Source: Natrinema salaciae
GTDB lineage: Archaea > Halobacteriota > Halobacteria > Halobacteriales > Natrialbaceae
Direction: 5' to 3'
Assembly: GCF_900110865.1 (NCBI RefSeq)
Contig: NZ_FOFD01000003.1
Location: 496,001-560,000 of the forward strand
DNA: 64,000 nt
Made by a program: the position numbers and the translations under genes. Positions 28,293 to 36,370 of the stretch are shown piece by piece. The notes under the pieces are model-generated. The model had not been told where the DNA came from. It saw only the letters and a list, made by a program, of their open reading frames with translations, and ran no database searches. How positions within the stretch are numbered: the first letter of the stretch is position 1; the number at the start of each line of letters is the position of its first letter.

Positions 28293-29192
28293 ATGGCAGA
28301 CACCGACTCGTCCGCGAGTTGCCCCGAATGCGACGGCAGAGTACGGAAGAAGGGTACCGAAATCGTCTGTGAGGACTGCGGACTCGTCTCCGCCGAAGAC
28401 GCGATCGACCGCGGTCCGGAGTGGCGATCGTTCGAGGACGACGACACCGATCGGCGACGGACCGGCGCGCCGTTGACCCGCTCGAGACACGACCGGGGTC
28501 TCTCGACGGAGATCGGCTACGGCACCGGTTCGGAGTCGGGATACAGCGCTCGGCTGACCGGCCGAAAACGCCGTCAGATCGCTCGCTTGCGCCGGGAACA
28601 CAACCGTGCACGGATCTCCTCGAAAACCGAGCGGAATCAGGTCTACGGATTCGCCGAAATCAGACGGATCGCCGCCCTGCTCTCGCTGCCGGACGCCGTC
28701 AGAGAGCAATCGTGTGCCCTCTTCGAGTCCGCCCAGTCCGAGGGGCTCTTTCAGGGTCGATCGCTCGAGGGATTCGCCGCCGCCGCTATTTACGCGACCT
28801 GTCGGACGCGCTCGATCCCCCGGACGACCGACGAGATCGCCGCTATCGCACGGGCCGACGTCGACGAACTCGCGGTCGCCTACGACGCTCTGAATCGCGA
28901 GCTCGGGCTGCCGACCGGTCCGATCGATCCCACGCAGTACCTGCCGCGATACGCCTCGAAACTCGACCTCGGGTCGGCCGTCGAACGCCGCGCCCGCGAG
29001 CACGTCGACGCCCTGCTCCAGGCGGGGCTCATCACCGGTCGCAACCCCAGCGGGGTCGCTGCGGCGTGTCTCTACAAGGCCGCTGGCGAACGCGAAGAGT
29101 GGCCGTCACTGACCCAGGCTGCGGCCGCCGACGTCGCCGACGTCGCGGCGGTGACGATCCGGTCGACCGTCACGAACCTCGACGAGCTCTGA
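28293..29192 (+). CDS. tfb: Transcription initiation factor TFB
   Basis: A 299-residue archaeal TFIIB homologue that joins TBP at the promoter and recruits RNA polymerase. The N-terminal zinc ribbon is CPECDGRVRKK...CEDCGLV, followed by a B-reader/linker region and two cyclin repeats. In the second, ITGRNPSGVAAACLYKAAGE is the helix-turn-helix that reads the BRE. Haloarchaea carry several TFBs; this one is a little short, and which promoters it serves cannot be read from sequence. AT-rich DNA (CATATTTTCCAACATTTAAA, about 28235) upstream could be its promoter. It is convergent with mcm. Confidence 0.92.
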   Translation: MADTDSSASCPECDGRVRKKGTEIVCEDCGLVSAEDAIDRGPEWRSFEDDDTDRRRTGAPLTRSRHDRGLSTEIGYGTGSESGYSARLTGRKRRQIARLRREHNRARISSKTERNQVYGFAEIRRIAALLSLPDAVREQSCALFESAQSEGLFQGRSLEGFAAAAIYATCRTRSIPRTTDEIAAIARADVDELAVAYDALNRELGLPTGPIDPTQYLPRYASKLDLGSAVERRAREHVDALLQAGLITGRNPSGVAAACLYKAAGEREEWPSLTQAAAADVADVAAVTIRSTVTNLDEL

Positions 29193-29312: not shown

Positions 29313-31961
29313 CTACGTCGTTCGGAGCGTATCCGTACTCGGCTCGTAGACCTCGCCTTTCTGTTTGAGCTTGTCGATCTCGTGTTCGGCCTTGGAGTGG
29401 TCCATGCCGACCTCTTCGGCCCGCTCGAGGACGATGTCCACCGGCGCGCCGTCGTCGTACTCCTCCTCGATGTCGCTGATGAGCTGCTTGAGGTTCTTGA
29501 TCCGATCGCGCTGTGACTTCGAGGTGCCGGCTTCGACGATGTCCGCGTCGAACTCGCCGGTCTCGGGATCGACCCCGACGTCCTGCAGACACGAGCGGAC
29601 GATCTCGATGACTCGCTCGGCGTCGCTCTGCTCGACCGTATCCGACAGCCGAACGCGGGCGCTCGCCTCCGAGAGCCGAACCAGCGCCTCGAGCTTTCGG
29701 GCCGTGACTGGCACCGCAGCGTCCTCGTCGGTCCCCTTCGATCGGAGATCGACGTAGAAGTCGCGGATCGCGTTCCGGGCCGCCTCGGTCATCCGCGGGT
29801 GGCAGTTCTGCTTCGAGTAGGCGATGTACTTCCGCAGGAGGTCGGCGTCGATCTCCGGATCGACCTGCTCGGTCATCTCGTCGATCTCGTCGGCGCTGAC
29901 CTCGAGCTGGTTCATCTCCGCTCGCTGCGTGGTCAACTCACCCGCGTAGTTGGTCGTGATGATGTGTTCGGCGAGGTTGCGGTCTTTCTCCTCGTCGGGG
30001 GTGTCCGTGACCGTGAAGATCAGGTCGAACCGCGAGATCAGTGCCGGCTCGAGGTCGATCTGCTCGCTGATCGGCTCGTACTGGTCGAAGCGGCCGTACT
30101 TGGGGTTGGCCGCGCCGAGCAGCGAACACCGGGACTTGAGCGTGGCGTTGATCCCCGCCTTCGAGACCGAGATCTTCTGTTGCTCGAGGGCCTCGTGCAT
30201 GGCACTCCGATCTTCCGATCGCATTTTATCGAGTTCGTCGATGGCCGCGATCCCTTGATCGGCGAGGACGAGCGCGCCGGCCTCGAGACTCCACTGTTGG
30301 CCGTCGCCGAAGTCGTCGCGGACGGCGGCGGCCGTGAGACCCGCCGAGGACGAGCCCTTCCCGGAGGTGTAGACGGATCGTGGTGCGATGTTCTCGATGT
30401 AGCCGAGCATCTGGGAGTTGTGCGAGATAACTCCGTTCGAGACGTAGTTGTGAGTTCCTTCGACCTCGAGATCGTATACCCAGTCGTAGTCGGGCTCGAC
30501 CGTCTCGAGCGAGACGATTCGATCGGTTTCAACTGTCCCGGATACGGTCACCGTTCCACCGTCAGTGAGGACGGGTTCCGTCCCTGCGGTCGACCGATCG
30601 AACGATTCTGGCCCCGTCTCTGCTATCGCGACCGGATCTCCGATCGAGAGTTCGTCGGCACGGGCCGGCTGGAAGCCACCGGAAGCAGGGACGAACAACG
30701 GATGCGATGGCGTCATCTCAAGTTCTCGTCCACTCGAGGTCCGAATCCGGTACATCTGATCGGGTGCTTCCCGTTTCCAGACTTTCGTCGCCCGTTGATG
30801 GGCAACCGATCCGTCGTTCTGCAGCGACGGTACCGGGATATCGATCTCGTCGTACCAGCCGTCGTCGATCGGTTTCGGATCGTCGAGGTTCGTCTCGACG
30901 AATTCGCGGATCGGGACGTCTCGTCCGTCCGCGAGTGTCACGTTGGTATCGCCGCTGACGCACTTCCCCGTACCCGGGTCCCCGATCAGGAGCATATGGA
31001 GGTCGCCCCGGATCCGCGAGCCGTCGGGCAACTGTTTCGTCACGCCCGAGAACAGCTGGAGGATCATCGCGAGCTTCTCCTGATCGTAGCCGTAGATGGA
31101 GGGCGCGATGGAGGCGACCATCTGCTCGTAGACATCGTCTCGGTTCGAAATCTCGTAGATCGCCTTCTTGTCCTCGTCGGTGATGTCCATGTCCTCGAAC
31201 TGCTCTTCGTCGATCTCGACGGACATCCCCTCCATGTAGAAGTCGAAGACGGGCGATTTCTCCTGTTGGTCGCCCTGCTGCTCGAGCCGGAGGACTCCCG
31301 TCGCGGAGACGTGGTCGCCGGGGGTGACCTCGCCGGTGATGTCGTCTTCGATGTTGATGTCGAGTGACTGCGGGGTTTCCCCGCCGCGGAGCCCCTCGGG
31401 GCTCTCCTGAACGCGGAGTTTCTGCGAGTCGACGAACTCGGACTGGTCGAAATTGACGCGGAAGGGTCCCTGCCGTTCACAGCCCTGACACTCGTGGGGT
31501 TCCTGGAAGTCGCCGCTGGACTGGGGGACGCGGGTGAGCGTCCCACAGAGTTGGCACTCGAAGGCGGCCTCCTCGATCTTGGGGCGGACGTCGGTCGCTT
31601 TGCGGATGATGCCGCGGACCTGCACGAGGGAGTTCATGTCCCGGGCGCGGATCTCTCGGATCTCGGGGGACTCCGTGTCAGGGAGGTTCCGGACCCGGAC
31701 GTGGGCCTGTCCGAGGCTCACGTCGATCGGGAGGTCGTAGAGTCGCAGCGCTTCCTCGGCGTAGCGCTGGAGCTGTTCTGGCTGGTTGATGAAGTCGTCC
31801 GCGAGGTCCGGATCGAACCGATAGAGATCCTGCCAGTCGACGTGGAGCGATCGCTGTTCGTTCGGATACCGCTGGGCAAGCTGCTTGATCTCGTTGTCGT
31901 AGTAGTTGCGAAAGAACTGCTCGAAAGAGTCGACGAGTTCTGAATTTCCCGCTTGCGCCAT
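29313..31961 (-). CDS. mcm: MCM replicative DNA helicase with an in-frame intein
   Basis: The 882-residue precursor makes a 700-residue MCM after removal of an 182-residue intein. Parts in order: N-terminal domain with zinc ribbon CQLCG...CQGC (136-161), the P-loop GDPGTGK at 327-333 split by the intein before its Ser, Walker B VLADQGIAAIDELDKM, arginine finger SRFDLIFTV, and a C-terminal winged helix. MCM forms hexamers that unwind DNA 3' to 5' at replication forks. A TATA box lies 27-33 bases before the ATG, so the message is nearly leaderless. The gene is convergent with tfb. Confidence 0.96.
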   Translation of the reverse strand: MAQAGNSELVDSFEQFFRNYYDNEIKQLAQRYPNEQRSLHVDWQDLYRFDPDLADDFINQPEQLQRYAEEALRLYDLPIDVSLGQAHVRVRNLPDTESPEIREIRARDMNSLVQVRGIIRKATDVRPKIEEAAFECQLCGTLTRVPQSSGDFQEPHECQGCERQGPFRVNFDQSEFVDSQKLRVQESPEGLRGGETPQSLDINIEDDITGEVTPGDHVSATGVLRLEQQGDQQEKSPVFDFYMEGMSVEIDEEQFEDMDITDEDKKAIYEISNRDDVYEQMVASIAPSIYGYDQEKLAMILQLFSGVTKQLPDGSRIRGDLHMLLIGDPGTGKCVSGDTNVTLADGRDVPIREFVETNLDDPKPIDDGWYDEIDIPVPSLQNDGSVAHQRATKVWKREAPDQMYRIRTSSGRELEMTPSHPLFVPASGGFQPARADELSIGDPVAIAETGPESFDRSTAGTEPVLTDGGTVTVSGTVETDRIVSLETVEPDYDWVYDLEVEGTHNYVSNGVISHNSQMLGYIENIAPRSVYTSGKGSSSAGLTAAAVRDDFGDGQQWSLEAGALVLADQGIAAIDELDKMRSEDRSAMHEALEQQKISVSKAGINATLKSRCSLLGAANPKYGRFDQYEPISEQIDLEPALISRFDLIFTVTDTPDEEKDRNLAEHIITTNYAGELTTQRAEMNQLEVSADEIDEMTEQVDPEIDADLLRKYIAYSKQNCHPRMTEAARNAIRDFYVDLRSKGTDEDAAVPVTARKLEALVRLSEASARVRLSDTVEQSDAERVIEIVRSCLQDVGVDPETGEFDADIVEAGTSKSQRDRIKNLKQLISDIEEEYDDGAPVDIVLERAEEVGMDHSKAEHEIDKLKQKGEVYEPSTDTLRTT
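30417..30962 (-). other. Mini-intein (182 aa) within MCM
   Basis: The insert begins with Cys (CVSGDTNVTLADGR, block A), has block B LEMTPSHPLFVPASG, block F YDWVYDLEVEGTHNYVSNG and ends GVISHN followed by extein Ser. Thus all splicing residues are present: Cys1, the block B Thr/His, the penultimate His and terminal Asn, and a Ser nucleophile at +1. At 182 residues there is no room for a LAGLIDADG homing endonuclease. It sits in the ATPase P-loop, between Lys and Ser, so the helicase is inactive until splicing occurs. Confidence 0.92.
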
Positions 31962-32767: not shown

Positions 32768-35248
32768 CTACTCGTCCGTGGTCCGTGCCGACGGGGAGAG
32801 ACGGCTATTTCGCTTCATTTCGACGTCCACGAACTCGACGTTCTCGGTCGTCGGTGCCGTCTTGTCCGTCCGATCCGATCCGCTGGCATCGTGTATTGCT
32901 GGCCCTTTCAGGGTGGGGCCGCCGGTCTTGAAGTGCGTGGGCGGCGGAGCCACGTCGTTGTCGGTCTCGTTTCGGCCGACGAACACGGTGTCTCTGGTCT
33001 CGGAGCCACCAAGCGCGAAGTGACCGATGTTGAAGTCCGCGACCACGCTGTCTTCCACGATCGACGTCTGGAATTCGGTCCAGATTCCCGAATGTTCGCA
33101 TTTGTAGGCCGTAAAGCCCTTGATACGGTCGGTCCGTTCCTTCGGGATCTCGTCGGGGTCTATCTCCATCGGTTCGAGTTGCATCATCAGCCCGATCCCC
33201 TGACAGATGTGCTGGTAGTGTGACATTCTCCACGAACTCATGAGACTCTCGTCGTCGACGTCCCCGACGTATCCATCCAGTAGACTGTACGGACGAACGG
33301 AATAGGAGTGGGCGACGTTGTCTTCGAACTGAATGTCGAACTCGGCGGCGTCGAGTCCCACGTCCGACTCGTCGTGTCCGTCGTAGAAGAACCCTATCGC
33401 CCCGTATCCGCCAGCAGCGTGGTTACCCACCAGGGTGTTGCTGGGATTCGACAGCCAGAACCCGGCCGGTCGATACCCGTTCTGGGCCTTCTTTCGCTGC
33501 GCGTTGCTAACGTCGCCCGGGAACTGTAGGTCCCCGCCGAAGGCACGGTCGATCTCTTTGGCGGTCTTCGTGAGGATCGCCAGGTTCTCCCTGAAGACGT
33601 TGCCTTCCTCCGACGAAAGCCCCTCCTCGACGAGGTAGGAGTGTCCGATCGTGTCGAACACGACGTTGCGTTCGATCTGGACGTTGCCAGTGCCGTGGGC
33701 GTTGATTCCACGCTGGAAGCTGTGCCAGACGCTGTTGTGCTTGATGTAGGAACCGGACTGGTCGTGAGCGTGATGGAAGTGGAGCGGGTATCTGGCCTGG
33801 TGGCCGGTCTGCCCACAGCGGAACGCTTCGAGTCCCTCGATCCGGACCCGGCCGGAATCGGCGAAGATCCCGTGGCCGCCGAACCCGGCAGCGTATTTCG
33901 AATCGACACCCTTGTCCGAGTCGTAGTAGCTGAGTTCGTCGCCTCGAAGTTCGACGTTTCGCGTGAGCAACCCGACTTCGGCTCGCATGTCGAGTTCCTT
34001 GCCGCCGTGCGTTTCGATGGCGCCGTAGTGGTCGTGCTCGAGCGGTTCGTCCAGCGTCAGTTGGTTCCCGCTGACCGATTCGACGGTTCGCCGTTCGGCG
34101 TGCCAGGGGTCCGAACCGCTGGGGGCGATGGCGAGCTGATCGCCCGACTCCCAGTTGACCGCCTCGGCGAGCGTGATCGTCTTGTCACCGGCGCTTGCGT
34201 GTGCGTCGAGCTGCGTCCAGTCGGTTTTGTCTCGGCTCGAGCCGTGGATTTCGATCGACCCACCGTCCCAAGTGCCGAGGAACTTCGTACCGATGGCCAT
34301 CACCCCCTCGCCTCTGACGTTCTCAGGACCGTGTCCCACGAGCGTGATCCGGGCGTCGTGTTCGTACGGATCGTCCTCGTAGCCGATGCGGATGAGCGAA
34401 TTCGACCCCTCAGCGAGCAGCCACGTCGTCGTGAGCTCCAGATCGACGCCGTCGCCGTCCTCATCGGAACCGACGATCGAACAGGACCCGACCTTTTTCC
34501 AGGCTTTCACGTCTTCACCCGGCTCATCGAGGGTGTACCACTTGGCCTCCCAGTTTGCGCCGTCGTACGAGACTACGTCTCCCCCTCTGTAGGGGTCCTT
34601 GTACGTGGTCTCTCGCCACATGGGGGCACAGGCGGTGGCGTCACTGTCGAAGCGGTTAGAACCGCTACTCCCACTGACGCCGTTGCCACCGTCCACATCG
34701 GAGCCGACGTTCGAACAGGGCTCGAGTTTTTTCCAGGCCCGCACGTCTTCGCTCGGCGCATCGAGGGTGTACCACTTGGCCTCCCAGTTTGCGCCGTCGT
34801 AGGAGACTACGTCTCCCCCTCTGTAGGGGTCCTTGTACGTGGTCTCTTGCCACGCAGGGGCACAGGCAGTGGCGTCACCGTCGGTGCGGTTAGAACCGTC
34901 ACCACCACCCCCACTGTCACCGTCACCACCGTCGCCGCTATCGCCCTCGCGGATCGATCCGTCTGCAAACTCGAGGGTACCGTTGACGAGGACGCCGTCT
35001 AACGGCGGCGGGCTCGTATCGAGTAGCACGTGATCTCCCTCTTCGATGGTCACGGTATCCCCCCTCTCCGGGGGCGAGCCGTCCCAGGTTGCCGGGTCGG
35101 ACCACCTACTCGGTTCGCTGTCTGCCTGTGCTGACGTTACGCTGGTTCCAAGGAAGCTGGCTGCGACGATACCAGTCGCCTGGAAAAACCGTCGCCTCTT
35201 CAGCATTCCGGCCCGGGATATTTCTTTCCGGTTGTCGTCCTTTGACAT
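32768..35248 (-). CDS. Secreted G8-domain beta-helix protein with two CBM5/12-like modules
   Basis: An 826-residue Tat-exported protein (signal LKRRRFFQATGIVAASFLG, cleavage near SAQA at 38-41). The G8 domain starts SRWSDPATWDGSPPERGDTV (48-67) and runs to NGTLEFADG (89-97). It is then interrupted by two CBM5/12-like modules (about 127-178 and 205-256; TYKDPYRGGDVVSYDGANWE in both) set in Gly/Asp/Ser linkers. The G8 fold resumes at DLELTTTWLLAEGSNSLIRI (269-288). The rest, to about 800, looks like a right-handed parallel beta-helix with PLHFHHAHD in the position seen in CEMIP/TMEM2-type hyaluronan proteins. A polysaccharide-binding or -cleaving role is inferred. Confidence 0.75.
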   Translation of the reverse strand: MSKDDNRKEISRAGMLKRRRFFQATGIVAASFLGTSVTSAQADSEPSRWSDPATWDGSPPERGDTVTIEEGDHVLLDTSPPPLDGVLVNGTLEFADGSIREGDSGDGGDGDSGGGGDGSNRTDGDATACAPAWQETTYKDPYRGGDVVSYDGANWEAKWYTLDAPSEDVRAWKKLEPCSNVGSDVDGGNGVSGSSGSNRFDSDATACAPMWRETTYKDPYRGGDVVSYDGANWEAKWYTLDEPGEDVKAWKKVGSCSIVGSDEDGDGVDLELTTTWLLAEGSNSLIRIGYEDDPYEHDARITLVGHGPENVRGEGVMAIGTKFLGTWDGGSIEIHGSSRDKTDWTQLDAHASAGDKTITLAEAVNWESGDQLAIAPSGSDPWHAERRTVESVSGNQLTLDEPLEHDHYGAIETHGGKELDMRAEVGLLTRNVELRGDELSYYDSDKGVDSKYAAGFGGHGIFADSGRVRIEGLEAFRCGQTGHQARYPLHFHHAHDQSGSYIKHNSVWHSFQRGINAHGTGNVQIERNVVFDTIGHSYLVEEGLSSEEGNVFRENLAILTKTAKEIDRAFGGDLQFPGDVSNAQRKKAQNGYRPAGFWLSNPSNTLVGNHAAGGYGAIGFFYDGHDESDVGLDAAEFDIQFEDNVAHSYSVRPYSLLDGYVGDVDDESLMSSWRMSHYQHICQGIGLMMQLEPMEIDPDEIPKERTDRIKGFTAYKCEHSGIWTEFQTSIVEDSVVADFNIGHFALGGSETRDTVFVGRNETDNDVAPPPTHFKTGGPTLKGPAIHDASGSDRTDKTAPTTENVEFVDVEMKRNSRLSPSARTTDE
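34431..34898. repeat. Tandem duplication of 234 bp within the G8-domain gene
   Basis: Two direct copies with period 234 bp (78 codons), meeting near 34664/34665. The core 34525-34613 matches 34759-34847 at all but one of 89 positions, and that difference (34568 versus 34802) is synonymous (TCG/TCC, Ser). Divergence is concentrated in the linkers. This indicates a recent duplication, or gene conversion, of one carbohydrate-binding module. Confidence 0.85.
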
Positions 35249-36370
35249 TATTCCATACTATAGATATAACCAAAGCCTATTAAATATTACCATGTACCGA
35301 GTCAATTTTTATATGCGCTCGAGCGGTGAGCCACCGGGAAATCCGAGGATTTCGAGGCGGTGTGCAAATCACGACGCGAATCCAGACGACCGAGGCTCGA
35401 GCGTGGAAGTGAACGCACCTGCAAGAAGCGACCGGTGAGAGTACGGTTTCGGGCGTGCTCGACGCGGCTGCAGGCTGCTCCCTCAAAATGCGCGGGGATA
35501 CGACCGCGCAGCCCAACGGGTGCGTCCCCGAACTGATCCGCCGTGCCAACCAGGAGGGAACGCTCACCGCCGCAGAGATCGCGGAGATTCTCGATGTCGA
35601 CGAGCAGAACGAGAACGATAGTATCGACTTCCTCGTTTCTTTACCGGAAATTCTACCAGAGTTCCAGATTGTACTATCGTCGGAAGGCCGCTCCCGTAAC
35701 CGACTCGCGAGCCGGCGAGCGGTGCCGGTGAGCGACGCCCGCTCTCCGTTTCGAAAAGAGTGCAGGGCGGCGCGACGATGGGCGTCGGCGAGCGCGCAGG
35801 ATCTCACCGCATCGACACGCTGGCCGTCGACGGCGTTGGTGGGATCTGCAATCGAAATAGTGAATGACTGTCACGATCCGAGCATCGAAAAACGACAGCC
35901 GAGGTATCGCGCAGCGGGTACAGCAGCCAGTGTGCGCCATAGTGGGAATCGCACAGGCGTATCGGTCACAGTGACCACAGTGGGTTTTTCGCCGATGTCT
36001 TGTTCGGTTCGGTATTCGTTTTCACCACCTCATACTCAGTTACTGTACGTCCAACAATAAAGGTTTTTGTTCGAGCAATGCCTGTAGAATACGTGCTCAC
36101 CCCTAACATAAATCCAATTATACGCCATATAGAACGACATGCAGAGTATAGTGGCCGAGGTAGCGGCTGGTTTGTGACCGGATCGCAGCCAGTGATCACA
36201 GAGACACGGCGATCGGCCGCCCCGATAGCGATCGATTCCGGACAGCAGGCCGGCAAACGACGGTAAACGCAGGCCGAAGAACCGCTCCCCCGCAACTCGA
36301 GCCCTCCGCTTGCGGGCAGGAGCCGATCGGGACGGCCGAAGCGGGTCGAACGGCTGGCGGACTGGTTCGC
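35249..36370. other. AT-richer region of fragments and no intact gene
   Basis: About 1,100 bases between the G8-domain gene and the first zinc ribbon. One open frame on the plus strand (35455-36060) begins well, with LIRRANQEGTLTAAEIAEIL followed by DVDEQ, which looks like part of a winged-helix protein. After about 80 codons it loses all haloarchaeal character. I take it as a decayed fragment. AT-rich stretches around 35250-35300 form the promoter region of the G8-domain gene; the rest shows no gene, RNA or repeat that I can support. Confidence 0.4.

Follow-up and report, generated by a model that had tools for sequence, protein, structure and literature searches.

A G8 domain interrupted by two CBM5/12 modules in a Tat-exported CEMIP/TMEM2-like beta-helix protein of haloarchaea

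CEMIP/TMEM2 relatives and the interrupted G8 domain

Human TMEM2 (CEMIP2; ectodomain structure 8C6I) and CEMIP (KIAA1199) combine a G8 domain with a CEMIP beta-helix core. The crystal structure of TMEM2 shows an unbroken right-handed beta-helix that begins with the turns of G8 and has a lectin-like domain inserted early in it (PMC10206443). The TMEM2 insert, a POMGNT1-like lectin with a small beta-sandwich, follows G8, and TMEM2 is also membrane-anchored and carries additional domains towards its C terminus. The catalytic activity of TMEM2 is disputed and its active site is not agreed. Two studies argue against activity (PMC10206443 and PMC10276149), one of which detected no hyaluronidase activity in the purified ectodomain and could not assign an active site (PMC10206443), whereas a third reported active TMEM2 (PMC10474455). 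G8 and the CEMIP beta-helix also occur together in bacteria, for example in Croceibacterium atlanticum (WP_053833714.1) and Vitreoscilla filiformis (WP_089418387.1), with G8 in a single stretch and without CBM5/12. In chitinases with CBM5/12 modules, a glycoside hydrolase such as GH18 is found in the same chain (PMC12343721).

We analyzed a window of 64,000 nucleotides of the Natrinema salaciae genome, the window being the whole stretch under study. One gene on its minus strand encodes a protein with the G8 domain and CEMIP beta-helix of these relatives, and its features are as follows.

32768..35248, minus strand: coding sequence (826 aa) for a secreted beta-helix protein of the CEMIP/TMEM2 type that has a split G8 and two CBM5/12 modules
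35123..35248, minus strand: predicted Tat signal peptide KRRRFFQAT...TSAQA, aa 1-42 (approximate), by direct reading, with RRxF aligned in the orthologues
34958..35107, minus strand: first part of G8, aa 48-97, Pfam profile positions 1-47, by profile and alignment to the unsplit paralogues
34442..34957, minus strand: nested insertion (aa 98-269) with two CBM5/12 modules in linkers rich in Gly, Asp and Ser, by the gap in the MAFFT alignment and independently by hhalign
34715..34864, minus strand: CBM5/12 module 1 (aa 129-178) between its flanking Cys129 and Cys178, by Pfam and as a copy of module 2
34481..34630, minus strand: CBM5/12 module 2 (aa 207-256) between its flanking Cys207 and Cys256, by Pfam
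34208..34441, minus strand: second part of G8, aa 270-347, profile positions 47-123, by Pfam and alignment to TMEM2 8c6i
33302..33886, minus strand: CEMIP beta-helix, aa 455-649 (PF24606, E 2e-43)
33626..33793, minus strand: conserved polar residues ARYPLHFH...R513...HGT...GH....E541 (aa 486-541), proposed on this ground as an active or ligand site

Pfam matched G8 (PF10162) at 73.7 bits (cut-off 22.9) and CBM_5_12 at 31.6 bits jointly (cut-off 26.2), each in two stretches, followed after G8 by the CEMIP beta-helix at 149 bits (cut-off 27.3). No match to a GH18 catalytic domain was found in the protein, and its CBM5/12 pair lies inside a beta-helix, unlike that of the chitinases. Since direct reading revealed neither a lipobox nor a C-terminal anchor, the protein is probably released freely outside the cell, in contrast to the anchored TMEM2. 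A TATA-like element, ATATAAAA, is located at window positions 35307-35314, some 66 bases ahead of the start codon, and suggests that the gene may have its own promoter.

The original prediction placed the start of G8 at SRWSD...NGTLEF and its resumption at residue 270, with about 170 residues holding two CBM5/12 modules between them. A position check agreed with this numbering: SRWSD starts at residue 47, NGTLEF occupies residues 89-94 and LELTTTW runs from residue 270, with about 172 residues breaking the contiguity of the domain. In a genome-wide search the two pieces matched complementary profile positions, 1-47 and 47-123, at separate places in the gene. An insert-free paralogue was found on another contig of the same genome (C1:609606-611291); it is 56% identical to the window protein over the helix and 49% identical over the first G8 half. 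It is a Tat-exported protein with the same G8 start and without CBM, and it has counterparts in two more haloarchaeal genomes (G009 and G210), in one of which (G210) it lies within a chitinase gene cluster. In a MAFFT alignment the junction of the unsplit proteins reads ...GVLEFKDG-GYRELTSDYVLAEG..., and that of the window protein reads ...GTLEFADG-[about 172 aa]-LELTTTWLLAEG.... The halves thus close up exactly in the unsplit relatives, as anticipated for a domain whose halves are normally only a few residues apart. A profile-profile comparison by hhalign with unsplit G8 proteins from archaea and bacteria gave one large gap at the same position. Since the paralogue, the tested bacterial G8 proteins and human TMEM2 are all uninterrupted across the junction, the CBM block was confirmed by these alignments as a true nested insertion within G8, and the arrangement shared by four orthologues excludes chance.

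Each half alone gives a partial G8 match, as expected if residues 48-97 formed a separate small domain, followed by two CBMs and by a G8/beta-helix region only after residue 268. However, the halves cover complementary parts of the profile and are joined in the unsplit paralogues at the identities given above. The sequence evidence showed neither a separate domain before residue 95 nor a region after 268 foreign to G8; the very improbable reading without nesting is thus ruled out at the sequence level by the paralogues. The high DNA identity of the two modules (89%) might also point to a CBM block created by mis-assembly or a repeat, but the gene is a single open frame without stops, and four independently sequenced genomes show the same architecture with diverged modules. 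Such an artefact is scarcely credible and is ruled out by the orthologues and paralogues.

Residues 254-347 and 354-750 of the window protein align to TMEM2 (8c6i) with an E value of 2e-34. At the archaeal insertion point TMEM2 is longer by only about four residues, as judged from the alignment with unsplit and bacterial relatives. Its lectin insertion is found about 85 residues further on, with about 165 extra residues between those matching window residues 347 and 354. The window protein runs straight from 347 to 354, and the lectin-like (GG) domain after G8 is absent from it. Both proteins therefore have an early-inserted domain of a sugar-binding type, after G8 in TMEM2 and inside G8 in the window protein, and given the TMEM2 lectin, such an insertion in a CEMIP-type helix is not unprecedented. 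The original prediction had placed the CBMs at a loop of a catalytic-type G8 fold. This part does not hold, because in the TMEM2 structure G8 consists of the N-terminal turns of the helix and not of a separate catalytic fold (PMC10206443). The modules would therefore sit at an early inter-strand turn and be looped out, a long way along the chain from the candidate site at 486-541. AlphaFold2 with a three-sequence alignment gave a pLDDT of 29.5 for the whole protein, and since this confidence is too low, the looped-out geometry is proposed by homology.

Distribution and origin of the insertion

G8 was present in 23 of 391 sampled genomes of the class. Among the matches listed, 29 span profile position 47 in one piece, and the split ones all belong to one protein family, from the window genome (G000) and three others (G220, G318 and G325). 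A family-wide search added a fifth genome (G447), and G8 is split at the identical profile position in all five family members. The four orthologues, about 75% identical, come from genomes of another haloarchaeal family (f4), named carriers being Halosimplex carlsbadense 2-9-1 and Halobacteria archaeon HArc-gm2, and all four combine the split G8 with two CBM5/12 modules. The bacterial genome sample for inserts at G8 position 47 comprised plasmids only.

In a tree built from columns filled in at least 30% of the rows, which left out the insert, the five split proteins grouped in a single clade (99/99). Its sister group was the unsplit haloarchaeal trio, and the unsplit bacterial proteins were next nearest. 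Since the split proteins form a single clade with an unsplit haloarchaeal sister, the CBM pair, as read from this tree, was inserted once and then inherited. The window genome is the only one of its family (f1) found with the split form, which suggests a transfer between families, with the exact donor branch weakly supported (82/80). A phage search and two viral-contig scans gave no match to the protein, and a phage or viral origin was rejected on this ground.

Two more distant G8 proteins are encoded on other contigs of the window genome (C2 and C7; frames of 1042 and 1093 aa), bringing its G8 proteins to four. In another genome (G346), two G8 matches of equal score and frame length at opposite contig ends (C1:29129 and C1:4091286) are possibly an assembly overlap. 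The searched literature held no mention of the G8 domain together with haloarchaea, and the nested G8-CBM5/12 architecture appears undescribed there. The architecture is real, inherited and rare, within a family that is itself known and for which the TMEM2 lectin insertion is a precedent.

The two modules of the window protein share identical copies of KDPYRGGDVVSYDGANWE and are identical at 174 of 195 DNA positions (89%); of the codons that differ, 6 do so synonymously and 11 nonsynonymously. Taken singly they score 23.7 and 22.5 bits, just under the Pfam cut-off, and those of the orthologues score 35-39 bits, above it. Both window modules go back to module 2 of the orthologues (52% each). 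Modules 1 and 2 of the orthologues differ from one another, module 1 being up to 71% identical to CBM5/12 of haloarchaeal GH18 chitinases, where the nearest relatives found for these CBMs occur. The near-identity is therefore local and not a family trait: the almost identical modules of the original prediction stood for the window protein and did not extend to the family, whose other members carry two different ones. By these comparisons, module 2 of the window protein was recently copied into module 1 by local duplication or conversion.

The modules share (A/N)xW(W/Y)T and flanking cysteines with CBM5/12 of Streptomyces ChiC (2D49), haloarchaeal GH18 chitinases and endoglucanase Z (1AIW). When aligned to 2d49 and 1aiw, the motif with the surface aromatic pair is AKWYT in the window modules and contains WW or WY in the orthologues. 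The flanking cysteine pair is invariant in all six modules compared. AlphaFold2 gave a pLDDT of 58 for the CBM module, and a fold search of the PDB with it returned chance matches only. In CBM5 a disulphide draws the ends of the module together, and such an end-joining bond would suit insertion into a loop.

Genomic setting, candidate site and possible functions

The split-G8 gene stands alone among unrelated genes. Its neighbors at the window locus encode MCM, TFB and a DEAD-box helicase. A polysaccharide cluster is not seen there, and glycan-synthesis genes were not found beside the gene at the loci inspected. A TFB (TFIIB-like) gene (window 28293-29192, plus strand) adjoins that of the MCM replicative helicase (29313-31961, minus strand), so the locus resembles core chromosome rather than a polysaccharide cluster. 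The MCM protein carries an intein in its P-loop domain (Pfam Intein_splicing, residues 341-515).

The unsplit relative in G210 lies on a 28-kb contig (C74) between two GH18 chitinases with CBM5/12. The chitinases of this contig also have PKD domains, and the contig further encodes a subtilase and another protein with CBM5/12 and PKD, in which no catalytic domain was recognized. GH18 was found in all three genomes with the unsplit form, including the window genome, which holds both forms. Profile searches of the four orthologue genomes gave no GH18 match and no CBM5/12 outside the split-G8 protein, which places the protein there outside an ordinary chitinase set. The idea that the CBM-bearing form works alone fits this GH18 pattern, in a sample that is small and confounded by ancestry. 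None of the seven genomes has GH20, not even those that are chitinolytic, and a GH19 search gave no hit, nor did its control; both results are uninformative.

Ten residues are invariant in 10 archaeal and bacterial proteins: R486, Y487, P488, H490, H492, R513, H518, T520, H536 and E541. The cluster that they form, RYPxHFH (486-492), R513, HGT (518-520) and GHxxxxE (535-541), is also present in TMEM2 (RYPxHFH...HGT...GHxxxE). We propose it as a candidate active or ligand site. A catalytic role is inferred from this conservation, which does not tell a hydrolase from a lyase.

We lean, by a little, towards a Tat-exported helix of the CEMIP type that binds and cuts a GlcNAc polymer with the help of a nested, chitinase-derived CBM pair. 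Its nesting, single origin, conservation, module families and export signal can be read from the sequence. The protein would be exported by Tat and secreted freely as a right-handed beta-helix. The CBM5/12 pair, most likely derived from a chitinase, would have entered an inter-strand turn in the G8 region once during haloarchaeal evolution, with the helix continuing through the insert and the modules, each closed by its cysteine pair, looping out on flexible acidic Gly/Asp/Ser linkers. The modules would hold an insoluble GlcNAc-type polymer, either chitin or a GlcNAc-containing exopolysaccharide, and a groove further along the helix, near RYPxHFH / R / HGT / GHxxxxE, would cut it. Because the unsplit relative in G210 sits between CBM5/12-bearing GH18 chitinases, that neighborhood points to chitin.

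The nested protein might instead be a secreted polysaccharide-binding or matrix protein, an adhesin or scaffold, with the helix as a rigid rod and the CBMs attaching it to chitinous or exopolysaccharide surfaces. The results with the purified TMEM2 ectodomain (PMC10206443) and the lack of GH18 in four of the five split-form genomes would agree with a non-enzyme, but the polar cluster is invariant from archaea to bacteria to human, beyond what a rod needs, and another group reports TMEM2 active (PMC10474455). We regard it as an unlikely role, and we are equally doubtful of an enzyme that acts as CEMIP does on hyaluronan but cuts a uronate/GlcNAc polymer of the haloarchaea themselves, such as an S-layer glycan or an exopolysaccharide similar to hyaluronan, with CBMs that bind the GlcNAc of this polymer and not chitin. 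CEMIP and TMEM2 are the nearest characterized relatives of the helix, and chitin breakdown is not obvious in orthologue genomes without GH18 chitinases; however, the modules resemble those of chitinases, the G210 relative lies among chitinases, and no glycan-synthesis genes were found beside the gene at the inspected loci. The window protein is most likely secreted to depolymerize, or to bind, polymers of the GlcNAc type; what we infer here is that it binds the polymer, the catalysis with its site, and the substrate.

Implications for the family

Two independent insertions of sugar-binding modules are now documented early in the same helix. If the helix cuts a GlcNAc polymer, the lectin and the CBMs would be two ways of holding that polymer beside it. 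Tentatively, and with less confidence than in any of the functions above, the archaeal CEMIP-type helix may cut chitin or another insoluble GlcNAc polymer with built-in CBMs gained in lineages without GH18, which would make the human lectin and the archaeal CBMs independent solutions. The importance of the split-G8 architecture is moderate and depends on biochemistry. A compact, lectin-free archaeal relative of TMEM2 with close versions with and without CBMs provides a natural experiment, and the paired proteins could tell the binding part from the cutting part and reveal whether the beta-helix acts as an enzyme at all.
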